From Nitrosovibrio sp. Nv4 (GTDB taxonomy: Bacteria > Pseudomonadota > Alphaproteobacteria > Acetobacterales > Acetobacteraceae), in assembly GCA_943330455.2 (NCBI GenBank), contig CALQHT020000029.1:1-34699 (forward strand): a DNA stretch of 34,699 bases, read 5' to 3'. Shown piece after piece: positions 4,624-34,570 of the stretch (its first letter is position 1; every line of letters starts with the position of its first letter). Position numbers and translations under genes: made by a program. The notes under the pieces are model-generated. The model did not search any database, was not told the DNA's origin, and saw only the letters and a list, made by a program, of their open reading frames with translations.

Positions 4624-5214
4624 TTATCCGGCCGCCGCCAAATGTGGATCCGCGACCAGGCGTGTGCGCAAAGCGGCATAGGCGAGGTTGATGGTTTTCA
4701 GGCGTTCCTCCGCGTCCCGGCTACCACCGTTTGCGTCTGGGTGATGGCGTTTGGCCAGTTCCTTGTAGCGTGTTTTAACCGCCTCCAGGGTGGTTGGCCA
4801 TGCCAGCCCGAGGGTCGCGAGTGGTTCTCTCAGGTCGGAGGGGACCTGGCCCGACGCGCGTTGTCGTGCCTGATCCACCTTCGCCGAGGCTAAAATTCGT
4901 AGAGGGTCGCGTAGCACCTCGCCTTCCCACATGCCAGTCCCGATGCGGCCGAGCGGCCAGGATGGGCGTTGCCAGGAGGTGTCGTCGCGGAGTTGGGCCT
5001 CGACTTCGGCGGGGGACATACCTTTGTAGTAGTCCCAACTGCTGTTGTATTCCCGGACATGGGCCAGGCAGAACCACCAGTAATCGTTCAGGGTGCGACG
5101 GGATTTGGGCGCGCGGTATTCGCCGGCCGCCACGCAGTCGGGCACGTCACAGGCCCGACCGGGCGCGGCCGGGTCGGGAGCATAGGCCCTGGGGCGCGCT
5201 GCACGACGGATCAT
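4624..5214 (-). CDS. J-domain (DnaJ-like) protein upstream of cobS
   Basis: The 196-residue protein has its J domain at the C-terminus (about 135-190), with the HPD tripeptide at 158-160 inside RHHPDANGG. It should stimulate an Hsp70 ATPase. The N-terminal part carries C22-x4-C27 and a later WWFCLAH (C49, H52), which could form a small metal site; this is inference. The family (RAPKSR...[15 protein letters not shown]-like core) is conserved in Alphaproteobacteria and commonly lies between bolA and cobS, as here. I chose the start at 5214 because the conserved region begins just after it and it leaves a divergent promoter gap to bolA. An upstream ATG at 5304 has a better Shine-Dalgarno sequence (GGTGGAG) but would overlap the bolA start codon and add 30 unconserved residues. 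Confidence 0.9.
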
Positions 5215-10259: not shown

Positions 10260-10349
10260 CCTCACCGTCATTGCCGGGCTTGACCCGGCAACCCACCCCC
10301 CGCCGTTGAAGCGCGGGTTGCCGGATCAAGCCCGGCAATGACGGTGAGG
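10260..10349. repeat. Alphaproteobacterial palindromic repeat, copy 1
   Basis: The arms 10260-10294 and 10315-10349 are inverted repeats differing at one position (GACCCGG versus GATCCGG), separated by a loop of about 20 bases. The unit (CACCGTCATTGCCGGGCTTG and its complement) recurs at 21323-21416 and, truncated, near 34549-34570. It lies between the convergent sirtuin and MFS/small-peptide genes, where it can act as a two-way terminator. Confidence 0.85.
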
Positions 10350-14273: not shown

Positions 14274-14378
14274 CCATGGCGGAACGAGTCCCGCGCTCCG
14301 CGCATGAGGAGCTGACGGTGATGCGGGACGAGGGGCGGCGCTGACGGTGCCGGCACCGGGGATGTCTCGGTTACGATC
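14274..14378 (+). pseudogene. Decayed vapB end plus vapC start
   Basis: Bases 14274-14343 parallel the 3' end of vapB2 (ATGGCGGAACG..., then CATGAGGAG...ATGCGGGACGAGGGGC, ending CGCTGA). They are followed by a short segment with TCGGTTACGATCGC, identical to the DASVTIA coding start of vapC2. Indels have broken both frames. The piece is a duplicated, eroded junction of a vapBC pair lying directly before the intact vapB2. Confidence 0.75.
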
Positions 14379-14430
14379 GCTGAACAGCAATTGTTTTGCA
14401 CTGGTCGTCCGACCGGTCTATTTTCCCGCC

Positions 14431-14709
14431 ATGAACGCCATCATACCCCAGCCCGCCGCCACGGTTGGTGCCTACGAAGCCAAAACCCACCTCGCGGAGC
14501 TGCTCGACCGTGTCCAACGCGGTGAGCAGATCGTCATAACGCGCCACGGCAAGCCGATCGCGCGACTGGTGCCGGAAGGGCAGCCGGATCTGACTGCTGC
14601 ACATGCGGCGTTGGACCGGTTGTTCGCACGTGCTGATGAAATGGCGGAACGCGGCGTGCGGTTCACCCATGAGGAGTTGATGGCGATGCGGGACGAGGGG
14701 CGTCGCTGA
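14431..14709 (+). CDS. Phd/YefM-type antitoxin of vapBC pair 2
   Basis: The 92-residue antitoxin has the Phd core VGAYEAKTHLAELLDRVQRGEQIVITRHGKPIARLVPEG (residues about 13-50), closely parallel to antitoxin 1, followed by a helical toxin-binding tail ending THEELMAMRDEGRR. It is 19 bases upstream of its toxin gene. The start at 14431 fits the family; an upstream in-frame Met at 14347 would include the decayed copy and is not used. Confidence 0.9.
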   Translation: MNAIIPQPAATVGAYEAKTHLAELLDRVQRGEQIVITRHGKPIARLVPEGQPDLTAAHAALDRLFARADEMAERGVRFTHEELMAMRDEGRR

Positions 14710-14728
14710 TCGCTGAAGCGCCGCATTG

Positions 14729-15133
14729 ATGTTTGTGTTGGACGCCTCGGTTACGATCGCCGCGCTCCTGCCCGAGGAGCGGACGCCGGAGGCTCGGGTC
14801 ATCTTACGGACGGCGTTGAATGGCGTCCTGGTCCCGACGCTTTGGCATCTCGAAGTTGGCAATATTCTTCTGCGCGCCGAGCGCCGAGGCGTAATACGAG
14901 TGGACGAGCGTGTTGGCCATATTGCGGATTTGTCGGCGCTTGCGGTGACGGTGGACCATGAGGGACCTGGACATGCGTGGCACGCAACGACAGTTCTTGC
15001 CCTCCGGCACCAGTTGACACTTTATGACGCTGCGTATTTGGAACTGGCGGTGCGACAGCGCGTTCCGTTGGCGACCTTCGATCGCGCGCTGGTGAGGGCG
15101 GCGCGGGCGGAAGGGGTGGCGGTGGCCGAGTAA
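14729..15133 (+). CDS. VapC-family PIN-domain toxin 2
   Basis: The 134-residue PIN protein retains all four acidic positions: D5 (LDASVT), E42 (WHLEVGNILL), D100 (YDAAYLELA) and D118 (TFDRAL). It should be an active Mg-dependent RNA-cleaving toxin kept in check by the adjacent antitoxin. A TTG directly before the ATG (14726) could also start translation. It is the best match for the truncated fragment at 13304-13408, so the cluster seems to have grown by duplication. Confidence 0.92.
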   Translation: MFVLDASVTIAALLPEERTPEARVILRTALNGVLVPTLWHLEVGNILLRAERRGVIRVDERVGHIADLSALAVTVDHEGPGHAWHATTVLALRHQLTLYDAAYLELAVRQRVPLATFDRALVRAARAEGVAVAE

Positions 15134-16383: not shown

Positions 16384-17793
16384 CTATCCCTGGTTCGCTC
16401 GCGACATCCGCCGCGGGCGGAACCAGACCCCGGCGGCGATGGCGGTCACCAACGTCACCCCATAGACCACCAAGGCCAGGGCGAGCGCGGCGAAGACCAG
16501 CAGCAGCGACCCCGTCGCGGCATAGACCGCCCAGCCGCCACCGACAGCGATGACCAGCCGCAGCAACCCGGCAAACAGCGGCCAGAACAGGCGCCCTGCT
16601 CCCTGGGACGCGAAATACAGCGACAGGCCGAGGCCGAAGAACCCGTAGGTCGGCCCGACCCATGTCAGATAGGCGACCCCCGTTTCCATCATGGCGGGGT
16701 CGTCGCTGAACAGGCCGAGCCAGGCGTGGGGAAAGAGGGAGGCGAGGATGCCGACGGTCTCGGTGACAAGGAAGGCGAGGCCGCCGCCGGTCAGGGCGAT
16801 CCTCAGCGCGCGTTGGCGTTGCCCGGCGCCGATATTGGTGCCGACCATGGCCACCATGGGTGCGCCGAAGCCGAAGACGAGCGGCACCAGCAGGTATTCC
16901 AGGCGTCCGGCCGTGCCGTAGCCGGCGACCGCGTCGGGGCCGCCCGCATGTCCGACCAATGCGGTGGTCAGCGCGATCGTCAGGGTCGTTTGGACGGTGC
17001 TGACCGCGCCGACCGCGCCGACTCGCAGGATGTCGGCGAACATCGGCCAGGACGGCCGCACGAGGGTCAGGCGCACGAGGTTGCGGCCGGACAGGATGTA
17101 CCAGGCCAGTACCGCGGCGGTCAGGGCGGTTGTCAGCACGATCGCGACCCCGCCACCGGCGATGCCCAGGGCGGGGATGGGGCCGAAGCCGAAGATCAGC
17201 GCGGGGGACAGCGGCAGCAGCAGCACGACCCCCACGCAGACCGCCAGGGCCGGGACCAGCATGTTTCCGGTGCCTCGGATCACGCTTGCCAGGGCGTTCA
17301 TCAGCCAAACTAATGGCGTGCCGGCGAACACCACGTTCGAGTAGGTCAGAGCGGCCACCAGGGATTCCTCTCGCCCGCCCAGCGACCGATAAAGTGACGG
17401 GCCAAAGCCGATCACCAGGGCGGAAAACGCGAAACCGAGCGCGAGGCAAATGATGATGGCGTGCATGACGAGGGCGTTGGCGTCGTCTCGCCGTCCGCTG
17501 CCCAGTGCACGGGCGATGGAGGAGGAGATGCCGCCCCCGACCGCTCCGCCCGACAGCATCTGCATCATCATGAAGCCGGGAAACACCAGCGCCATGCCGG
17601 CCAGCGCATCGGTGCCGAGATGGGAGACGAACCAGGTTTCGATCAGGCCGGTGGACGCCTGGGCCACCATCACCAGGATGTTCGGCCAGGCGAGACGCAG
17701 CAGGGTGGGGACGATCGGGCCTTCCAGCAGGAGTGCTGTGCGTCTGCTGACGGGTGCCGTCGTGGCGGGTGCGACAGGCAGAACGGCGTTCAT
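16384..17793 (-). CDS. MATE-family efflux transporter
   Basis: The 469-residue membrane protein has about twelve hydrophobic spans in two related halves, with the MATE features PTLLRLAWPNILVMVAQASTGLIETWFVSHLG at the start and GTPLVWLMNALASVIRGTGNM in the first half. These transporters export cationic drugs or metabolites using Na+ or H+ gradients. The start codon overlaps the stop of the upstream HxlR gene (ATGA), and AGGGGAG lies seven bases before it. The HxlR protein is the likely controller. Confidence 0.92.
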   Translation of the reverse strand: MNAVLPVAPATTAPVSRRTALLLEGPIVPTLLRLAWPNILVMVAQASTGLIETWFVSHLGTDALAGMALVFPGFMMMQMLSGGAVGGGISSSIARALGSGRRDDANALVMHAIIICLALGFAFSALVIGFGPSLYRSLGGREESLVAALTYSNVVFAGTPLVWLMNALASVIRGTGNMLVPALAVCVGVVLLLPLSPALIFGFGPIPALGIAGGGVAIVLTTALTAAVLAWYILSGRNLVRLTLVRPSWPMFADILRVGAVGAVSTVQTTLTIALTTALVGHAGGPDAVAGYGTAGRLEYLLVPLVFGFGAPMVAMVGTNIGAGQRQRALRIALTGGGLAFLVTETVGILASLFPHAWLGLFSDDPAMMETGVAYLTWVGPTYGFFGLGLSLYFASQGAGRLFWPLFAGLLRLVIAVGGGWAVYAATGSLLLVFAALALALVVYGVTLVTAIAAGVWFRPRRMSRANQG

Positions 17794-18314
17794 GGTGTGG
17801 CTCCCCTGTCGGGTTGGGCGCTCTGTCGGTCCGGATACCGGTTCGCGTAACGCTGCAGGACCGCTTCGGTGGCCGCTGGGCCGGGTGCGACGATAAAGTC
17901 CGGTTCGACGATCGGCTTGCCGGTCACTCGGTCCATCAGGATCGGGTCCGCCGGCACGCCGGTTGCGGCATCGACGATGTGGACGCTGGCCCCTTCCGGC
18001 GCGAAATGGCGGTTTCCCCACGCCAGCATCGTCAGCAGAACCGGGCGGAAGTCCCGGCCGCGGGCGGTCAGGCGGTATTCATCGCGCGGTGGGTGCTCGC
18101 TGTAGCGGTGACGTTCGAGCATGCCCGCCTCGACCAGCGCATTCAGGCGGCGGGTCAACATACCGGGCGCGATGCCGAGGCTCTTCTGGAACGCATCGAA
18201 GCGCGTCAGGCCGGCGAAGGCGTCGCGCAGGATCAGGATGCTCCACCATTCGCCCACCCGTTCCAGGCCGCGGGCGATCGGGCAGGGCATTGTGTCGAAG
18301 CTGGTGCGTTTCAT
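17790..18314 (-). CDS. HxlR-family transcriptional regulator
   Basis: The 174-residue winged-helix protein has the HxlR signature CPIARGLERVGEWWSILILRDAFAGLTRFDAFQKSLGIAPGMLTRRLNALVEAGMLERHRY, with the conserved N-terminal cysteine C11 that in some members senses aldehydes or oxidants. A C-terminal extension beyond residue about 115 contains DAATGVPADPILMDRVTGKPI, a common HxlR tail. It overlaps the MATE efflux gene by four bases, so both are made from one message. Start 18314 is taken because the family begins there. Confidence 0.9.
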   Translation of the reverse strand: MKRTSFDTMPCPIARGLERVGEWWSILILRDAFAGLTRFDAFQKSLGIAPGMLTRRLNALVEAGMLERHRYSEHPPRDEYRLTARGRDFRPVLLTMLAWGNRHFAPEGASVHIVDAATGVPADPILMDRVTGKPIVEPDFIVAPGPAATEAVLQRYANRYPDRQSAQPDRGATP

Positions 18315-18402: not shown

Positions 18403-18627
18403 GGGGCTCCGCCCCGGACCCCGCGAGGGGCGTTGCCCCCTCGACCCCCACCAAGGCTGGGCCTTGGATGCCTTCTGTTGGGTCAGGGGGGAAAGGGGGC
18501 CAACCGTGGCATATCAACGTCCGTGTCGGCCCCCTTTCCCCCCTGACCCAATGGATCGCGGTCCAGGGGCCGCAGCCCCTGGTGGGTTCGAAGGGCGAAG
18601 CCCTCGCGGGGTTTGGGGCGGAGCCCC
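18403..18627. repeat. 225-bp palindromic element, copy A
   Basis: The left arm is 18403-18501, the core 18502-18527 (26 bases) and the right arm 18528-18627. The arms are imperfect inverted repeats of each other, beginning GGGGCTCCGCCCC and with a perfect inner stem around GGGTCAGGGGGGAAAGGGGG. Copy B at 24575-24799 has exactly the same length and about 94% identical arms, but its core is inverted. The element lies between the divergent HxlR and hslV genes, ending about 50 bases before hslV. Confidence 0.93.
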
Positions 18628-18639
18628 GAGGCTTTCACC

Positions 18640-18668
18640 CTTGCCCTTACGTCCACGCCACGCCATCT
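18640..18668 (+). promoter_or_regulatory. Candidate RpoH-like promoter of hslVU
   Basis: CTTGCC (18640-18645) and CCATCT (18663-18668) are 17 bases apart and resemble the alphaproteobacterial heat-shock sigma-32 pattern (CTTG...CYTAT). The predicted transcription start would be only a few bases before the hslV ATG, and no Shine-Dalgarno is visible there, which would make the message leaderless. Suggestive only. Confidence 0.3.
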
Positions 18669-18677
18669 AGCGCCGTC

Positions 18678-19250
18678 ATGCACAACAATTCTCTCGCCGC
18701 CGCCGATCCGATCGGATGGCACGGCACCACCATCCTGTGCGTCAGGCGGGATGGACATGTAACCATGGCCGGGGACGGCCAGGTCAGCCTTGGCCCCACC
18801 ATCGTCAAAGGCAACGCCCGCAAGGTTCGCCGCATCGGCGATCCCAAACGAGGCAACGTGATCGCCGGGTTCGCCGGCGCCACGGCCGACGCGTTCACCC
18901 TGCTGGAACGGCTGGAAACCAAGCTCGAACGCTTTCCCAACCAGTTGGAGCGCGCCTGCGTGGAACTGGCGAAGGACTGGCGCACCGACCGCTACCTCCG
19001 CCGCCTGGAAGCCATGATGGCGGTCGCCGACAAGGAGCGCAGTTTCACCCTGACCGGCAACGGCGACGTGCTGGAACCCGAAGACGGCGTGATCGCCATC
19101 GGCTCCGGCGGGAACTACGCCCTCGCCGCCGCCCGCGCCCTCATGGAAATCGACGGCCTCTCCGCCGAAGACATCGCTCGGCGAGCCATGAAAATCGCGT
19201 CGCAGATCTGCGTTTATACCAACGGCAACATCATCATCGAGTCCATCTGA
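18678..19250 (+). CDS. hslV: ATP-dependent protease peptidase subunit HslV
   Basis: HslV (ClpQ) is the proteasome-like threonine peptidase that works with the HslU unfoldase in the cytosol. The 190-residue precursor reads [20 protein letters not shown]; removal of the short propeptide exposes the catalytic N-terminal Thr of the TTIL segment. Further family motifs are [35 protein letters not shown] and [14 protein letters not shown]. The gene overlaps hslU by one base (TGATG). The start at 18678 is chosen because further upstream the frame runs into the palindromic element. Confidence 0.96.
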
Positions 19251-20572
19251 TGGAAGTCCCAACCTACTCCCCGCGAGAGATCGTCTCCGAGCTCGATCGA
19301 TTCATCGTCGGGCAGAACGATGCCAAGCGCGCGGTCGCCATCGCCCTGCGCAACCGCTGGCGCCGCCAGCATCTGCCGGAAGCGATGCGCGAAGAAGTGG
19401 TGCCGAAAAACATCCTGATGATCGGCCCGACCGGCTGCGGCAAAACGGAAATCGCCCGCCGCCTCGCCAAGCTGGCGCAGGCCCCGTTTCTGAAGGTCGA
19501 GGCCACGAAATTCACCGAGGTCGGCTATGTCGGCCGCGACGTCGAAAGCATCGTCCGCGATCTGGTCGATGCCAGCCTGAACCTGCTGCGTGACGCATCC
19601 CGCAAGGATGTGCGGGCCAAGGCGGAACAGGCGGCCGAAGAACGGCTGATCACCGCGCTGGTGGGCGAGGACGCCGCCGCTGACACCCGCTCCAAATTCC
19701 GTCGTATGCTGAGAAACGGGGAGTTCGAGGGCAAGGAGATCGAAATTTCCGTGACGGAACCCGCCTCCAACCCGATCGGCCAGTTCGATATGCCGGGCAT
19801 GCCGCCAGGCCAGGTGATCAACCTGTCGGAGATGATGAAAGGTCTGATGGGCAACCGCCCGCAACAGAAGCGGCGGATGACGGTGGAAGCCGCGCGCAAG
19901 CTGCTGGAAGCCGAGGAAGCCGACCAGTTGCTCGACAACGACCAACTGACCAAGGACGCGGTCTCGCACGCGGAAAACCACGGCATCGTGTTCATCGATG
20001 AGATCGACAAGATATGCGCTCGTACGACGGAGGGTGGCTTCCGGGGCGGCGACGTGTCTCGCGAAGGCGTGCAGCGCGACCTGCTGCCGCTGATCGAGGG
20101 CACCACCGTGAACACCAAATACGGCCTGGTGAAGACGGACCATGTGCTGTTCATCGCCTCGGGCGCGTTCCATCTGGCCAAGCCGTCCGACCTGCTGCCG
20201 GAATTGCAGGGGCGCCTGCCGATCCGGGTGGAACTGGCGCCGCTGTCGCGCGATGATCTGCGGCGTATCCTGACCGAACCCGAACACTCCCTGGTGAAGC
20301 AATACGCGGCGCTGATGGGGACCGAGAACGTGACCCTGGATTTTGCCGAGGACGCGATCGACGCCCTGGCCGATCTGGCATCCGAGATCAACGACCGGGT
20401 GGAGAATATCGGCGCGCGCCGGCTGCACACGGTGCTGGAGCGGCTGCTGGAGGATATCAGCTTCACCGCCACCGACCGCGGCGGCGAATCGATCACCGTC
20501 GATGCCGCCTATGTGAACGACAAAGTGGCGCCGTTGGCCCAGAAGGGTGACCTCAGTCGGTTTATTCTCTAG
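19250..20572 (+). CDS. hslU: ATP-dependent protease ATPase subunit HslU
   Basis: HslU (ClpY) is the AAA+ unfoldase that feeds substrates to HslV. The 440-residue protein has a Walker A motif GPTGCGKT at 59-66, the pore loop GYVG at 92-95, an inserted I domain (about 110-240), a Walker B motif FIDEIDKI near 247-254, and the conserved C-terminus LSRFIL, which docks into HslV. It is translationally coupled to hslV through TGATG. The length and all key motifs are normal. Confidence 0.97.
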
Positions 20573-20592
20573 CCGTGCGTTCCCACGGGTGT

Positions 20593-20598
20593 TATAAC
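20593..20598 (+). promoter_or_regulatory. Candidate -10 box (TATAAC) of abrB-doc
   Basis: TATAACGTCTG appears 28 bases before the antitoxin start and again before the amidohydrolase gene (21453). No good -35 is seen here, so promoter strength may depend on an activator. Confidence 0.35.
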
Positions 20599-20625
20599 GT
20601 CTGTGCAAACCAGGAGGGTTAGCCC

Positions 20626-20850
20626 ATGCAAGCGTTGAAACTGACCCAGATCGGCAATTCCGTCGGTGTTATCCTTCCGCGCGAACTCCTCGCCAAGCTC
20701 GGCCTGGCGAAGGGCTCCACGGTTTACGCGATCGACCAGCCCGACGGAGTTCGGCTGACCACCGCCGATCCCGACTTCGAGGCACAAATGGACGTCGCTC
20801 GGCGCGTGATGCGGGAACGCCGGGCGGTGCTGCGCGAACTGGCGAAGTGA
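20626..20850 (+). CDS. AbrB/MazE/SpoVT-type antitoxin
   Basis: The 74-residue protein has the swapped-hairpin AbrB fold: LKLTQIGNSVGVILPRELLAKLGLAKGSTVYAIDQPDG at residues about 4-42. It binds its own operator and, through the C-terminal helix (FEAQMDVARRVMRERRAVLRELAK), the toxin. An AGGAGG ribosome site lies about nine bases upstream of the ATG. Its last codons overlap the Doc toxin start (GTGA), so the two are translationally coupled. Confidence 0.9.
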   Translation: MQALKLTQIGNSVGVILPRELLAKLGLAKGSTVYAIDQPDGVRLTTADPDFEAQMDVARRVMRERRAVLRELAK

Positions 20851-21227
20851 CCGTCTGGCTGTCCCGCCAGGTCATTCTCGCCGTCCACGACGAACAACTG
20901 GCCGAACATGGCGGCGCGATCGGCGTTCGCGACGAGGGCCTGCTGGACAGCGCCCTCGCCCGTCCTCTGAACCGTGCTGGCTATGGGGAGCCGGACATCG
21001 CCGAGTTGGGCGCGCTGTACGGGATCGCGATCGCGCGGAACCACCCGTTCGTGGATGGCAACAAGCGGACTGCCTATGTGGCTCTGGAGTCGTTCCTACT
21101 GCTGAACGGCTGCCGGTTCCCCGTCAGCGACGCCGAGGCCGTGGTGGTGATGCTCGCCATGGCATCGGGAGAGATCGACGACGCGGAGTTCATCGACTGG
21201 GTGCGGGCCAACACGGTTATAGACTGA
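20847..21227 (+). CDS. doc: Death-on-curing (Doc) family toxin
   Basis: The 126-residue Fic-fold protein has the Doc motif HPFVDGNKRTA at 66-76. The lysine where Fic adenylyltransferases have glycine indicates the Doc branch, which phosphorylates EF-Tu and stops translation. The N-terminal VHDEQLAEHGGAIGVRDEGLLDSALARP is the typical Doc substrate-side region. It starts at a GTG overlapping the AbrB antitoxin gene. The antitoxin is AbrB-like rather than Phd; this pairing is seen elsewhere in bacteria. Confidence 0.92.
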   Translation: MTVWLSRQVILAVHDEQLAEHGGAIGVRDEGLLDSALARPLNRAGYGEPDIAELGALYGIAIARNHPFVDGNKRTAYVALESFLLLNGCRFPVSDAEAVVVMLAMASGEIDDAEFIDWVRANTVID

Positions 21228-21322
21228 ACCGTTACCCGCCCGGTGGCGCCGGACGCCCGGATCATGGCACAAGCCTGCTGACACCAACGGCCCGAACCAT
21301 TGACCGATGCACCTCCACCGCC

Positions 21323-21416
21323 CCTCTCTCACCGTCATTGCCGAGCTTGACCCGGCAACCCACACCCGGCGGTCGAAGCGCGGGTTGCCGGATCAAGCCC
21401 GGCAAGGACGAGAGGG
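21323..21416. repeat. Alphaproteobacterial palindromic repeat, copy 2, with extended arms
   Basis: The inner arms match copy 1 (CACCGTCATTGCC... and GGGTTGCCGGATCAAGCCCGG), with outer CTCTC/GAGAG. Beyond them, about 21284-21310 (AACGGCCCGAACCATTGACC...) and 21426-21450 (...GGTCAATGATTAGGGCCGTG) are also inverted repeats, so the full palindrome is about 165 bases. It lies between doc and the amidohydrolase gene. Confidence 0.85.
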
Positions 21417-21452
21417 ACGGGGACGCTATCGGTCAATGATTAGGGCCGTGGG

Positions 21453-21458
21453 TATAAC
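21453..21458 (+). promoter_or_regulatory. Candidate -10 box (TATAAC) of amidohydrolase operon
   Basis: TATAAC is preceded by GGTCAA (21431-21436) at 16-base spacing, a weak -35, and followed 22 bases later by the ATG. The -35 lies inside the right outer arm of the palindrome, so the repeat may supply part of the promoter. Confidence 0.35.
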
Positions 21459-21479
21459 GTCTGGAACCGGAGCGCAGCC

Positions 21480-22451
21480 ATGCCCGTTAAACCCCTTGGC
21501 AAACCGCGGGTCATAGCCCTCGAAGAGCATTTTCAGGACCCCGAACTGGGTGCCATGTACGGCCCATTGGATGCCAACGCAGCCGCGCATGTGCGCGACC
21601 GATTGGAATCATTGGGAGAAATCCGGCTGAAGGAGATGGATGAGGCGGGGATCGACATCCAGGTCATCTCCCATTCGGCGCCGTCCGTGCAGAAGATGGA
21701 CGCGGAAAGCGCCGTCCGCATGGCGCGTCTGGTGAACGACCGGCTGCACACGGCCATCGGCAACCATCCCGACCGCTTTGCCGGCTTCGCCACCATCCCC
21801 ACGCCCGACCCCAAGGCCGCGGCCGACGAATTGGAGCGCGCGGTCACCAAGCTGGGTTTCAAGGGCGCCATGGTGCACGGCCTGACCAACGGGCGCTTTC
21901 TGGACGAACCCGACTTCTGGCCGATCTTCGAGCGAGCCCAGGCGCTGGATGTGCCGCTCTATTTCCACCCGGCCGTGCCATCCCAGGCGGTGATCGACGC
22001 CTACTACAAGGAATACATGGACAAATTCCCGATCATCCTGCGCGCCGCCTGGGGTTTCACCATGGAAACCGCGACCCAGGGGCTGCGCCTGGTGCTGTCG
22101 GGCGTGTTCGACAAATACCCGGGCATGCAGGTCATTTTCGGCCATCTGGGCGAGGGACTGCCCTTCTACACCTGGCGCATCAACATGACCCTGGCGCGGG
22201 ACGGCCGTCACGAACAATGGTTCCGTGACATTTTCACCTCGCATTTCCATATCACCACCAGCGGCTTCTGGTCCGACCCGGCGCTGATGATGTGCGTGCA
22301 GGAACTCGGGGTCGACCGCATCATGTTCTCGGTCGACTGGCCGTTCGCGCCCAACCGGCCGGCCACCGACTGGCTGCATCGCATTCCGCTCTGCGCCGAG
22401 GACCGCGCCAAGATCGCCAGCGGCAATGCACGCCGCCTGCTGAAGTTGTAA
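21480..22451 (+). CDS. Amidohydrolase-family protein, gamma-resorcylate decarboxylase-like
   Basis: The 323-residue TIM-barrel protein belongs to the ACMSD/amidohydrolase-2 group. Candidate metal and catalytic residues are visible: E15 and H17 in ALEEHF, H163 in YFHPAV, H222 in FGHLGEGLPF and D286 in FSVDWPF. The ALEEHF start and SVDWPFAPN near the C-terminus are closest to 2,6-dihydroxybenzoate (gamma-resorcylate) decarboxylases, which remove CO2 from aromatic acids without a redox cofactor. The exact substrate is inferred. It is followed at 8 bases by sufE and then an MFS gene, probably one operon. Confidence 0.85.
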   Translation: MPVKPLGKPRVIALEEHFQDPELGAMYGPLDANAAAHVRDRLESLGEIRLKEMDEAGIDIQVISHSAPSVQKMDAESAVRMARLVNDRLHTAIGNHPDRFAGFATIPTPDPKAAADELERAVTKLGFKGAMVHGLTNGRFLDEPDFWPIFERAQALDVPLYFHPAVPSQAVIDAYYKEYMDKFPIILRAAWGFTMETATQGLRLVLSGVFDKYPGMQVIFGHLGEGLPFYTWRINMTLARDGRHEQWFRDIFTSHFHITTSGFWSDPALMMCVQELGVDRIMFSVDWPFAPNRPATDWLHRIPLCAEDRAKIASGNARRLLKL

Positions 22452-22459
22452 AGGACCCC

Positions 22460-22921
22460 ATGCAAGACCCGTTCGTCATCCCGGAAGAACCCACCGCCGC
22501 CGCCGCGATCGCCGCGATCGGTGAGGAACTCGACATCTTCGACGACTGGATGGAGCGCTATCAGTTCATCATCGAGATGGGCCGCAAACTGCCGCCGTTC
22601 CCCGAGCCATGGGCCGATGACGCCCACCGGGTGCCAGGCTGCCAAAGCCGCGTCTGGATGGAAGCGACGGTGCGGGACGGCGCCATGTTCTTCGCCGGCG
22701 CTTCGGATGCCGCGATCGTCTCCGGCCTGGTGGCGTTGCTGTTGCGCGTCTATTCCGGCCGTCCGGTGGAGGAAATCCTGGCGACCGACCCGGTCTTCCT
22801 GAAGGACCTCGGCCTGTTGGAGGCGCTGTCGACCAATCGCGGCAACGGCATCGCTTCAATGGCGCGCAAGGTGCGTGAGGCCGCCGCCCTGCAACGCGCC
22901 GCCCCGTCCCGCGCTGATTGA
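22460..22921 (+). CDS. sufE: SufE-family sulfur-acceptor protein
   Basis: The 153-residue protein has the SufE fold, with DIFDDWMERYQFIIEMGRKLPPF and the sulfur-accepting cysteine C61 in RVPGCQSRVW. SufE takes persulfide from the cysteine desulfurase SufS and passes it to the SufBCD scaffold for Fe-S assembly. No other suf gene is nearby; it lies between an amidohydrolase and an MFS gene with 8- and 9-base spacings. AAGGA lies 5 bases before the start. Confidence 0.93.
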   Translation: MQDPFVIPEEPTAAAAIAAIGEELDIFDDWMERYQFIIEMGRKLPPFPEPWADDAHRVPGCQSRVWMEATVRDGAMFFAGASDAAIVSGLVALLLRVYSGRPVEEILATDPVFLKDLGLLEALSTNRGNGIASMARKVREAAALQRAAPSRAD

Positions 22922-22930
22922 TCCCGGCTC

Positions 22931-24091
22931 GTGTGGGTTTCCGCCCGGGTTGGGTTGGTCGTTGGGGCCTATTTCACCTCGATCGCCGTCACGGGCTTCA
23001 TGCCGCTGTGGTATTCCGACCGGGGCATATCGGCCGAGGAAATCGGTCAGATCCTAGGCACTGCCACGTTCCTGCGCATCCTGGCCGGGCCGGGTTGGGG
23101 CAACGTAACCGACCGCATTGGCCGGCGGCGCCCGGTGCTGCTGGTGGCAGGGCTGGCGGCGACCGCGATGGCGCTGATGTTCGTGCCGGCACAGGGCTTC
23201 GTGCTGCTGGTGCTGGTGGCGTCCGGTCAGGGGATCGCGGCGTCGGCGCTCAATCCGTTGATCGACTCCCTGGCCTTGGCCCTGGCGCGCGAGGGACGCA
23301 TGGAATACGGGCCGGTGCGCGCCATCGGTTCGGCCACGTTCATGATTACCACCGCGACGGTGGGATCGCTGTTGACGGCCATCGGGTCCTGGGTGGTGCC
23401 CTGGTTGATGGCGACCGGCTATGGGTTGGCCACCTTGTTCAGCCGGTTCCTGCCAGAGGCCGCCGCTCCGCCCGCGGTGGCTCGCAGCTTCAACGGCATG
23501 GCTCTGTTCCGCAATCCGGGCTTCCGTCTTGCGGTGCTGTCCAGCGGCCTGATCCAGGGCTCGCACGCGGCCTATTACGGGTTTGCGGCGCTGTTCTGGC
23601 GGTCCCAAGGGTTCAGCGACACGGTCATCGGCCTGTTATTGGCCGAGGGCATCATCATGGAGATCCTGCTGTTCGCCCGCGGCCGGCGTCTGATCGCGTA
23701 TCTGGGACCCGCCGGCCTGACCTTCTGCGCCGCCCTGGCCTGCGCCATCCGCTGGGGAGTGACCGCCGCCAGCCCGCCTCTGGCGATCCTGGCGCTGATC
23801 CAATTCCTGCATGCGGCGACCTTCGCGATGCAGCATATTTCGGCGATGACCGTGCTCAGCCGTTACGTCCCGGTGGAACGAGCCGCCACCGCCCAGGCGC
23901 TGCATGGGGCGCTGGGATACGGAGCGCCAAACGGCATCATGATGCTGATCGCCGGCTGGCTCTACGCCCGCTACGGCGGCGTGGCGTTCCTTGCGATGGC
24001 GGTGGTCGGTGGAGCGGCCATGCTGGTGGCCGTGCCGCTTACCCGCCTGGAGGCGGCGAAGGATTCTGATCCCAGTTCGGATCGTCGCTAG
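22931..24091 (+). CDS. MFS transporter, phenylpropionate-permease (PPP/HcaT)-like
   Basis: The 386-residue protein has about twelve spans and the loop 2-3 motif GNVTDRIGRRRPVL. The N-terminal pattern FTSIAVTGFMPLWYSDRGISAEEIGQILGTATFLRILAGPGWG is typical of the MFS_1-like/HcaT group, some members of which carry aromatic acids. This fits a possible aromatic-acid decarboxylase two genes upstream. It starts at a GTG nine bases after sufE. Its last 53 bases overlap the convergent VOC gene, which is unusual. Confidence 0.85.
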   Translation: MWVSARVGLVVGAYFTSIAVTGFMPLWYSDRGISAEEIGQILGTATFLRILAGPGWGNVTDRIGRRRPVLLVAGLAATAMALMFVPAQGFVLLVLVASGQGIAASALNPLIDSLALALAREGRMEYGPVRAIGSATFMITTATVGSLLTAIGSWVVPWLMATGYGLATLFSRFLPEAAAPPAVARSFNGMALFRNPGFRLAVLSSGLIQGSHAAYYGFAALFWRSQGFSDTVIGLLLAEGIIMEILLFARGRRLIAYLGPAGLTFCAALACAIRWGVTAASPPLAILALIQFLHAATFAMQHISAMTVLSRYVPVERAATAQALHGALGYGAPNGIMMLIAGWLYARYGGVAFLAMAVVGGAAMLVAVPLTRLEAAKDSDPSSDRR

Positions 24092-24527
24092 GGCTCAGCG
24101 GTTGATCGGCGGAGGCGAGCAAGCCGCGCCCGGGGACGAAGTTGACTTCCAGGCGGATGCCATCCGGGTCCTCGAAGACGAAGAAGTAGTAGCCCGGTGC
24201 GAAATTGCCCTCCAGCGGGCCGCGGTCGATAGTGCCGCCCATCTCGCGCACTTTGGCCGCCGCCGCGTCGACATCCTCCCGCGAACGCGCGCGCAGACAC
24301 AGGTGGTGCAATCCCACCCGATTGGGCACGAACCGCTCGTTCTCATGCTCCGGCGCGCAACGCTGGATGCCGATCGCGGTGCGTCCGCCGACATGGTACA
24401 GGAAGTTGTTGCCGTCATAGACCTTGGTCATGCCCAGAAACGGCAGCAACTCGGCATAGAAGGCCCGGGCTTTCTCCCATTGGCTCACGGTCAGGATCAC
24501 GTGGGCCATTCCGTTGACTTCGATCAT
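24039..24527 (-). CDS. VOC-family (glyoxalase/dioxygenase fold) protein
   Basis: The 162-residue protein has two beta-alpha-beta-beta-beta modules. Likely metal ligands are H9 (MAHVILTVS), H74 or H75 (GLHHLCLRA) and E127 (IRLEVNF). The family includes glyoxalase I, dioxygenases and resistance proteins; the reaction cannot be assigned. The C-terminal tail (PLSPSDDPNWDQNPSPPPGG) is low complexity and encoded by DNA overlapping the end of the convergent MFS gene. Confidence 0.85.
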   Translation of the reverse strand: MIEVNGMAHVILTVSQWEKARAFYAELLPFLGMTKVYDGNNFLYHVGGRTAIGIQRCAPEHENERFVPNRVGLHHLCLRARSREDVDAAAAKVREMGGTIDRGPLEGNFAPGYYFFVFEDPDGIRLEVNFVPGRGLLASADQPLSPSDDPNWDQNPSPPPGG

Positions 24528-24574
24528 CGATCGGTTGCGCCTTTATCGCTGGAGGGAGTTGGCAAGAGGGCGTC

Positions 24575-24799
24575 GGGGCTCCGCCCCGAACCCCGCGAGG
24601 GGCTTTGCCCCCTCGACCCCCACCAAGGCTGGGCCTTGGATGCCGTTTATTGGGTCAGCGGTGAAAGGGGGCCGACACGGACGTTGAAACGCCAGGGTTG
24701 GCCCCCTTTCACCCCTGACCCAATGAATCGCGGTCCAGGGGCCGTAGCCCCTGGTGGGTTCGAAGGGCGAAGCCCTCGCGGGGTCCGGGGCGGAGCCCC
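24575..24799. repeat. 225-bp palindromic element, copy B (core inverted)
   Basis: The left arm is 24575-24673, the core 24674-24699 and the right arm 24700-24799. The arms differ from copy A at about 7 of 99 and 5 of 100 positions and have the same orientation. The core matches copy A only when reversed and complemented (23 of 26). One stem pair is G-C in A (18490/18539) and T-A in B (24662/24711), a compensatory change. It lies between argJ and the VOC gene. Confidence 0.93.
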
Positions 24800-24823: not shown

Positions 24824-26053
24824 CTAAGACCGGTAAGACCCGTTGATGTCGATATACCCATGCGTCAGGTCGCAGGTCCAAACCGTCGATTTGCCGCGAC
24901 CCAGCCCGATATCGATGTCGATTTCGATCTCCTGGCCCTTCATATGCGCCACCACCGGCGTTTCGTCATAGCCGGGCACAACGCCGCCTTCCTTCGCCAT
25001 CCACGTGCCGCCAACCCCGATCGACAGCTTGTCGCGATCCGCCGGCTCCCCGGCCTTGCCGACCGCCATCACGATGCGGCCCCAGTTGGCGTCCTCTCCG
25101 GCGATGGCGGTCTTCACCAAGGGCGAGTTCGCGACCGTCATCGCGATTTTCTTCGCCGACCGCGCGGTCGTCGCACCGGTCACGTTGATCTTGACCAGCT
25201 TCTGCGCGCCCTCTCCGTCCCGCACCACCTGCAAGGCCAGGTCCAGCAACAGATCCCGCAATTGCGCGGCGAAATCCTTCAGGATCGGCCCACCTTCCGC
25301 CGGCACCCGAGGATGCTTGGTCTGCCCGGTCGCAATCAAAAGTACCGTGTCGGACGTGGACGTATCGGAATCCACCGTCGTCGCGTTGAACGTCGTGTCC
25401 ACACCCTTGCGCAACATCGCCTGCAAGGCCGGAGCCGGGATCTTCGCGTCGGTGAACACGAAGCACAGCATCGTCGCCATGTCCGGCGCGATCATGCCGC
25501 TGCCCTTGGCGATGCCGGTGATCCGCACCTCGGCGTCCCCGATCTTCGCCACCCGGGTGGCCGCTTTCGGGAATGTATCCGTGGTCATGATGCCGCGGGC
25601 GGCAGCTTCCCACCCATCCTCGGTCAAGCCGTCATGCAGGGCGGGCAATCCGGCGATCAGCTTCTCATGCGGCAGCACTTCGCCGATCACCCCGGTCGAG
25701 GCCACGAAGACCTGCTTCGGCGGACAGCCGGCAAGCTTGCCTGCCGCGGCGGCGGTGGCGACGCAGGCATCGCGGCCGGCCTTGCCGGTGAACACATTCG
25801 CGTTCCCCGCATTCACCACCACCAACCTTGCCTTCCCCCCACCCAACGCCGCTCGGCACCAATCCACCGGCGCGCCAGGGCATTTGTTGGAGGTGAACAC
25901 ACCGGCGGCGGTGCTACCGGACGGCACCTCCATCATCACCACATCGGTGCGTCCCTTGTATCGGATTCCGACCTCGGCGGCGTTCAGGCGAACCCCAGCC
26001 AATGGCGGCAGCGCCGGCAATGCAACGGCGAGCGGGGAGACGGAACTTGTCAT
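24824..26053 (-). CDS. argJ: Bifunctional glutamate N-acetyltransferase/amino-acid acetyltransferase ArgJ
   Basis: ArgJ transfers the acetyl group from N-acetylornithine to glutamate and, when bifunctional, also uses acetyl-CoA, in cytosolic arginine synthesis. The 409-residue precursor self-cleaves at the conserved KGSGMIAPDMATML motif; T194 becomes the nucleophile of the beta chain. Other family segments are NAGNANVFTGKAG, ASTGVIGEVLP, NATTVDSDTSTSDT and AGEDANWGRI. The start at 26053 has AAGGGAA a few bases upstream. It follows the parvulin gene by 110 bases on the same strand. Confidence 0.96.
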   Translation of the reverse strand: MTSSVSPLAVALPALPPLAGVRLNAAEVGIRYKGRTDVVMMEVPSGSTAAGVFTSNKCPGAPVDWCRAALGGGKARLVVVNAGNANVFTGKAGRDACVATAAAAGKLAGCPPKQVFVASTGVIGEVLPHEKLIAGLPALHDGLTEDGWEAAARGIMTTDTFPKAATRVAKIGDAEVRITGIAKGSGMIAPDMATMLCFVFTDAKIPAPALQAMLRKGVDTTFNATTVDSDTSTSDTVLLIATGQTKHPRVPAEGGPILKDFAAQLRDLLLDLALQVVRDGEGAQKLVKINVTGATTARSAKKIAMTVANSPLVKTAIAGEDANWGRIVMAVGKAGEPADRDKLSIGVGGTWMAKEGGVVPGYDETPVVAHMKGQEIEIDIDIGLGRGKSTVWTCDLTHGYIDINGSYRS

Positions 26054-31175: not shown

Positions 31176-31260
31176 GCATGATGATCCGGATCGCGCCCCG
31201 TTGGGCCTGAGTGTCGGACCCTACGGAACTCACACATCTCGAAATGGGGCACTGGCAGGA

Positions 31261-31370
31261 GAAAATCCTCCCCCGCCCCTTGCGGGAGGGGGTTGGGGGG
31301 AGGGATTTTACGCAATATCCATGCGAGCTTACCCCTCCCCCCGCCCCCTCCCGCAAGGGGAGGGGGAGAA
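31261..31370. repeat. GC-rich inverted repeat between convergent genes
   Basis: Arms at about 31261-31305 and 31331-31372 (CCTCCCCCGCCCCTTGCGGG and its complement) surround a loop of about 25 bases. It lies between the convergent MBL and MFS genes and probably terminates both. The CTCCCTTGCGGGAGG-type unit is widespread in alphaproteobacteria. Confidence 0.8.
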
Positions 31371-31447
31371 TTTCCTACCCTGCCGCGATTTGTGAATGCC
31401 GAAAGCGTCGGGCCTGGGCGTCGGAACACCCAGGCCCAAACGTCACG

Positions 31448-34394: not shown

Positions 34395-34548
34395 GGATGG
34401 GACGCTTTCCAGGCCAACAGGGTTAGGACGTGTTGGACCCATCCTATACGGGTATCGGCCGCACGGGAAATCGGGCTGGGTGATGGGGGGGGGCGGGAAG
34501 CGCCTCATACCAACTGACCCTAACCATCGACCGCTTCACCGCCACCTC

Positions 34549-34570
34549 ATCGTCATTGCCGGGTCAAGCC
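34549..34570. repeat. Truncated alphaproteobacterial palindrome, copy 3
   Basis: CATCGTCATTGCCGGGTCAAGCCC matches the outer left arm of copies 1 and 2 fused to a piece of the right arm, then breaks off. The preceding 34505-34548 also resembles the flank of copy 2 (ACCAAC...AACCAT-GACCG). The break probably marks an insertion at 34571. Confidence 0.65.

Follow-up and report, generated by a model that had tools for sequence, protein, structure and literature searches.

Small hairpin-loop inversions in chloroplast DNA, in which a loop between short inverted repeats occurs in either direction, are single loci, whereas the element described here forms a repeat family. In the cited passages, LIMP, the Lobosphaera incisa mitochondrial palindrome, resembles it in being dispersed, always intergenic and equipped with a conserved loop that occurs in either of two directions at about equal frequency; LIMP has 19 copies, a stem of AACCA pentanucleotide repeats and a 7-nt loop, and its copies are associated with rearrangements (PMC4524435). 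Unlike LIMP, the repeat here resides in a bacterial chromosome, has far more copies, long complex arms and a 26-bp tip, and did not show AACCA/TGGTT stem repeats.

Template-switch mutations in hairpins, as the relevant parts of two reports describe them, produce the same complementary stem changes and an inverted loop of unchanged length, as single events in genes and mostly with short spacers (PMC8604942, PMC8794818). In yeast, template switching makes hairpin arms alike and reverses the spacers between them, the inversions being a few bases long and shorter than the 26-bp tip here (in the cited part of PMC8604942); it also gives rise to hairpin stems, repairs them and inverts their loops, bacterial rRNA included (in that of PMC8794818). 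The loop of the repeat described here is also inverted with its length kept, but in a repeat family, with both directions at about equal frequency and with the arm region inverted too.

REP and BIME elements with RAYT transposases are likewise high-copy intergenic palindromes, of about 20–50 nt and with a GTAG-type tag according to excerpts of PMC8266576 and PMC3733652; the present repeat measures at least 225 bp, and its consensus edges, drawn from 40 copies, contain no GTAG-type tetranucleotide. Bacterial MITEs share with it a size of 70–300 bp, a non-coding nature and presence or absence at a site between close species, but have short terminal repeats around a unique middle (PMC3733652, section on these elements), whereas ours is palindromic almost throughout. 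No description of this repeat family was found among the matches listed from open-licence literature.

The palindromic repeat and its family

The window, i.e. the whole stretch of 34,699 nucleotides analysed, belongs to a genome of 6.48 Mb in 470 contigs (G000), which we compared with a close relative (G017) and a second species (G007). It contains two copies, A and B (Table 1), of a dispersed intergenic palindromic repeat. The sequence-only reading had described two elements of equal length with arms about 94% identical and an inverted 26-bp core, and this is borne out: both are 225 bp long and in register with a spacing of 6172, their arms are identical at 187 of 199 positions (94%), and their cores agree at 13 of 26 positions directly and at 23 of 26 once one of them is reverse-complemented. 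That even the direct comparison yields 13 matches reflects a partly self-palindromic core; the best other offset of the copy A core against the reverse complement of the window gives 17/26. One stem pair differs on both sides, G18490/C18539 in A and T24662/A24711 in B, and the bases named earlier for this compensatory change are correct. The single-strand folds of both copies are far below those of shuffled sequences (z −15.2 for A and −16.8 for B). Ungapped self-complementarity of the arms is only 57/99 and 59/99, respectively; with gaps, the arms pair nearly throughout. Both copies are intergenic, as had also been read from the sequence: copy A lies between two divergent genes, its end at 18627 leaving 50 bp before the start of hslV at 18678, and copy B is flanked by two minus-strand genes, argJ and one of the glyoxalase family.

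Table 1. Positions in the window of the two repeat copies, their parts and their neighbouring genes
Feature	Positions	Strand	Remark
Copy A, palindromic repeat	18403..18627	+	core direction taken as forward
Core (tip) of copy A	18502..18527	+	23/26 to core of B after reverse complementation
Left inner stem, copy A	18478..18501	+	
Right inner stem, copy A	18528..18551	+	complementary to 18478–18501
Copy B, palindromic repeat	24575..24799	+	arm direction as in A, core inverted
Core (tip) of copy B	24674..24699	-	inverted relative to A
Left inner stem, copy B	24650..24673	+	
Right inner stem, copy B	24700..24723	+	
HxlR-type regulator gene, divergent neighbour of copy A	17790..18314	-	
hslV, downstream neighbour of copy A	18678..19250	+	NCBIfam HslV, 282.8 bits
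Glyoxalase-family gene, neighbour of copy B	24039..24527	-	
argJ, neighbour of copy B	24824..26020	-	longest ORF extends to 26131

A first look at the window's genome gave 258 candidates for the repeat, and all 40 that were scored matched. A profile search covering the window and 60 further stretches, 1.235 Mb in all, found 25 copies, 23 of them full-length and two cut by contig ends, which by proportion suggests about 130 copies in the genome, perhaps an underestimate since contigs break at copies. Isolated half copies were absent from this 1.235 Mb, except for the two cut by contig ends. Altogether, the distinct copies or partial copies read number 51 in the window's genome, 20 in the close relative and 24 in the second species. 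Of 33 genomes in the genus, 10 (the window's included) match the repeat at 1e-12; among 16 genomes from other genera of the class, none did at 1e-3. The exact pattern of tip and stem edges, in a search that may omit records near the window's own genome, was found in 11 stretches, all in two metagenome assemblies (7 and 4), G007 and G017. A plasmid or phage home was rejected, as neither collection contained a match.

The copies share a common anatomy. Outer and middle arms, which contain several short hairpin motifs, are conserved in sequence; the inner stem varies from copy to copy yet remains complementary, and the 26-bp tip is conserved. Between subfamilies, the inner stems beside the tip are unrelated, the tip is still recognisable and the GGCC edges beside it are always kept. 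Conservation exceeds the 225 bp by about 20 bp on each side in 40 subfamily-1 copies, with consensus sequences AAGAAAGCC and GGCTTTCTTT; in A and B the outer edges are rather degraded.

The best reading is that the repeat is mobile or recently was. When 41 flank pieces from the window's genome were compared with the close relative, 22 matched and 20 counterparts were fetched. In nine of these both flanks are present but no copy was detected, the flanks being separated by 20 to 180 bp that are mostly unalignable; in one, the two flanks enclose other DNA of about 380 bp; ten are one-sided or at a contig end, three of them with a copy or part of one. Conversely, a copy in the close relative (L100) has both its flanks but no copy in the window's genome. 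A check for target-site duplications met alignments of empty sites that are strongly diverged at the junctions. Mobilisation by a RAYT was rejected: the Y1 tyrosine transposase gave no match in the window's genome and was found in one of nine copy-bearing genomes (the second species), being absent from seven of the eight others searched, in a search whose controls were positive in 5 of 14. The only match (L219, G007 C60:30789-31145) has no repeat copy within the surrounding 2,060 bp.

Other repeats are also present in the window. A second palindromic repeat, starting CTCACCGTCATTGCCGGGCTTGACCCGGCAA, occurs at 10261–10343 and 21328–21410 (93% identical over 83 nt), with a partial match at 34540–34563; by eye it resembles CGTC-tagged REPs, which are reported missing in Acetobacteraceae in the cited passage of PMC3733652. 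A third inverted repeat at 31260–31376 is of another sequence type, with 45-nt arms at 84% and 27 nt between them. Stretches at 14276–14380 and 14641–14760 are neighbouring duplications (69 nt at 83% with spacing 365, and 21 nt at 90% with spacing 380), perhaps a duplicated small gene.

Direction of tips and arms

Fifteen full-length subfamily-1 copies lie in the 1.235 Mb of the window's genome fetched regardless of tip, seven with a forward and eight with an inverted tip; the window was chosen for the finding, and without it the split is 6:7. Tips in the second species are forward in eight copies, inverted in ten and ambiguous in one, and in the close relative five are forward and three inverted, 18 of 20 stretches from the former and one set from the latter having been chosen for holding copies like A. 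The tally over all 40 subfamily-1 copies read in the window's genome, 28:12, leans forward and is not usable as a frequency, since stretches L002–L030 were ranked by likeness to A. Cores are ambiguous in five of eight subfamily-2 copies in the window's genome, in one of seven in the close relative and in two of 21 copies in the second species. Copy B is thus not a lone rearrangement in a family that otherwise has one core orientation, and the earlier proposal that the tip can flip is upheld both by the 7:8 split and by the shared sites described below. An opposite pair also exists at different sites: window copy A and copy L092 of the close relative have arms 97% identical, the same stem and opposite tips, which match at 30 of 34 positions inverted and 20 of 34 directly (counting eight letters of the GGCC edges). 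The arm tree was rejected as a history of flips; on it, the tip directions of 48 copies need 12 changes, no better than shuffled directions (mean 13.0; 96 of 300 shuffles at 12 or fewer), and the tree is weak, with seven of 45 inner branches starred.

Ten sites could be compared between the window's genome and its close relative, the flanks being about 87–94% identical. Scoring arms and core, in that order, against the flanks, two sites are same/same (pairs 4 and 5), three same/inverted (pairs 1, 2 and 9), three inverted/same (pairs 3, 6 and 8) and two inverted/inverted (pairs 7 and 10), so that the tip differs in direction relative to the arms at six of ten. At the three same/inverted sites, opposite cores lie between arms of the same direction. 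Pair 4, copy A and its counterpart, is unflipped, and its stem remains complementary through joint changes. In pair 8 the arms are inverted and an unusual stem is kept; the stems differ in pairs 1, 2, 3, 6, 9 and 10. Pair 5 is ambiguous, being same/same against the copy that shares the right flank, while against window copy B, which shares the left flank, it is inverted/inverted by eye; pair 10 was scored on small margins. In the reciprocal comparison, 13 of 14 flank pieces from the close relative were usable: four gave scorable pairs, one was the other end of such a pair, five were cut by contig ends (one of them pair 11, uncounted) and three had no detected copy in the window's genome.

At four shared sites the arms were compared more widely. 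Their identity between the two genomes, 0.892–0.944, is no higher than that of unrelated copies (mean 0.901, sd 0.025), and 5 to 35 of 40 copies in the window's genome are closer than the counterpart at the same site; the contents of sites have therefore been replaced, and flips need not have taken place in situ. Direction is unstable over the time separating the two genomes, and site contents are exchanged too. What is surprising is that the two tip directions are nearly equally frequent and that flips occur at two nested levels. In the close relative, near 4772–5002 of L092 (contig C245), a repeat copy has the left flank of window copy B on one side and, on the other, the right flank of a copy on contig C4 of the window's genome; at this junction the chromosome may have been rearranged through the repeat, or the assembly misjoined.

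Stem pairing and the origin of the inversions

Base pairing is maintained, as had been suggested from copies A and B. The two halves of the inner stem agree at 0.970 within a copy and at 0.657 between copies (77 copies, seven of the 84 full-length ones being left out where the script found no core edges; 0 of 2000 permutations), and a stem half finds its own partner best, or tied for best, in 64 of 77. The same holds for subfamily 1 in the window's genome (0.953 own against 0.841 other), for the second species (1.000 against 0.763) and for the other subfamilies (0.980 against 0.573), each with 0 of 2000 permutations. Flanks 20–55 nt outside the repeat are still more complementary within copies than between them, at 0.517 against 0.441 for 39 copies in the window's genome and 0.548 against 0.453 for 18 in the second species (0 of 2000 permutations in both), though a flank's own partner fits it best in no more than 9 of the 39 and 9 of the 18. 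In part of the copies, then, the palindrome extends into copy-specific flank. It continues into flank absent from other copies at L004:1400-1840, L010, L028 and L089; such copies look as if they sat inside an older hairpin or had grown their arms.

We lean towards hairpin strand switching during replication, in a mobile or once-mobile repeat, as the source of both flips and pairing. Single-stranded during replication, the palindrome would fold into a hairpin, and the growing strand would switch template between its arms. Switching out and back would invert the segment between the switch points, either the tip or the whole arm region; the same switching would copy one arm onto the other, keeping the arms complementary, and exchange between copies would add reshuffling. 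Because one process would yield both inversion and arm copying, flips and pairing are explained together, and we infer strand switching to be the simplest single source of tips and arm regions that are inverted and of complementary stems that are rewritten. Counting against it, no event has been seen directly and all the genomes compared are drafts. The shortness of the published yeast inversions, the arms at four shared sites that are no closer than those of unrelated copies, and the stems that differ in six pairs count against it too.

The main rival, which probably also acts alongside strand switching, is exchange between dispersed copies by ectopic recombination or gene conversion: copies that can be aligned either way would import arms, stems and tips, which then appear flipped. 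We regard it as possible, though rather unlikely, as the principal explanation. The arms at the four shared sites that are no closer than unrelated copies point to it, as do pairs 9 and 10, in which the same site holds different stems, and the junction in the close relative that combines the flanks of two copies. However, the longest exact match between left and right arm within a copy has a median of 23 and a maximum of 47 (84 copies). An inverted alignment would thus rest on short exact matches and a direct one on about 90% identity over the full length, so exchange should mostly preserve tip direction; alone, it also leaves the two-sided stem changes unexplained. Since site contents differ, either exchange acts too or the assemblies mix copies, and the shares of strand switching and exchange are indistinguishable in the present data.

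In draft assemblies of a high-copy repeat, copies might have been mixed up or pieces turned round. Some contigs of the window's genome and of its close relative break off within a copy, all 33 genomes of the genus examined have at least 60 contigs, and the L092 junction is possibly a misjoin; among the matches listed in a literature search for the assembly method, no paper names these assemblies. An artefact is nevertheless improbable as the source of the flips, because either tip direction is seen in each of three separate assemblies and the two halves of a stem match within their own copy. Moreover, no exact arm-to-arm match exceeds 47 bp in the 84 copies, and joins made on longer words cannot turn the tip round. 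Replacement of whole copies is less protected from assembly error than the flips are.

Pairing could instead be maintained by selection on an RNA hairpin, such as a two-way transcription terminator, with flips as incidental events. Both neighbours were called, by a simple gene caller of our own that tolerates overlaps of up to 60, for 45 of 48 full or near-full copies, part of which had been fetched for likeness to A. All 45 are intergenic, although one extends 28 bp into a called gene; 17 lie between convergent, 16 between tandem and 12 between divergent genes. Convergent neighbours are in excess, their background share being 0.177 when intergenic regions are counted (p 0.001) and 0.201 when intergenic bases are (p 0.005), and this, with the very stable fold, fits a terminator, a role that some copies may have. 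The 12 copies between divergent genes, A among them, do not fit, and the flips are left unexplained; in the window, no Rfam family reached the gathering score (0 matches, on which a known RNA family was rejected). We hold such selection improbable as the general cause.

The sequence-only reading had attributed the flip to recombination between the arms or to a dedicated invertase. The flip itself is supported; the invertase is not, as the stems bordering the tip, its would-be sites, differ completely between subfamilies. A site-specific recombinase inverting the tip, as in phase variation, would fit the GGCC edges kept in all subfamilies, but beyond these four letters the bordering stems are unrelated, the arms flip as well, and a 26-bp tip flanked by palindromic arms offers little that a switch could change. 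None of eight neighbouring frames in the window encodes a recognisable recombinase (five matched a family, three nothing), and we consider this explanation very improbable. Nor can recombination between the two arms of a single copy account for everything, because the arms also flip against the flanks and contents are exchanged between copies.

Long palindromes in a bacterial chromosome

In E. coli, a 246-bp palindrome forms a lagging-strand hairpin that is cut by SbcCD, and the cited part of the same report calls such lengths longer than the palindromes naturally found in the bacterial genome (PMC3315005). None of the 33 genomes of the genus has an SbcD match above the curated cut-off, although all 33 have weaker matches; this may represent a permissive background. 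Loss of SbcD was rejected as the cause of copy number, since copy-rich and copy-poor genomes alike lack a match over the cut-off.

A wider interpretation, which we offer tentatively and think rather doubtful, is that this is a selfish bacterial palindrome kept palindromic by a mutation process and not by selection: nested segments would flip to equilibrium, stems would be rewritten as complementary pairs, and the flip would possibly be part of spread through a single-stranded hairpin. Hairpin-ended viral genomes have flip and flop ends, and, if the interpretation is true, the outcome for the selfish palindrome would be comparable. Strand switching at bacterial palindromes has usually been deduced from isolated events; this family offers a record of it that each genome contains in many copies. 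Compensatory base pairs can plausibly arise here without selection, and covariation in such repeats is then no proof of a functional RNA.
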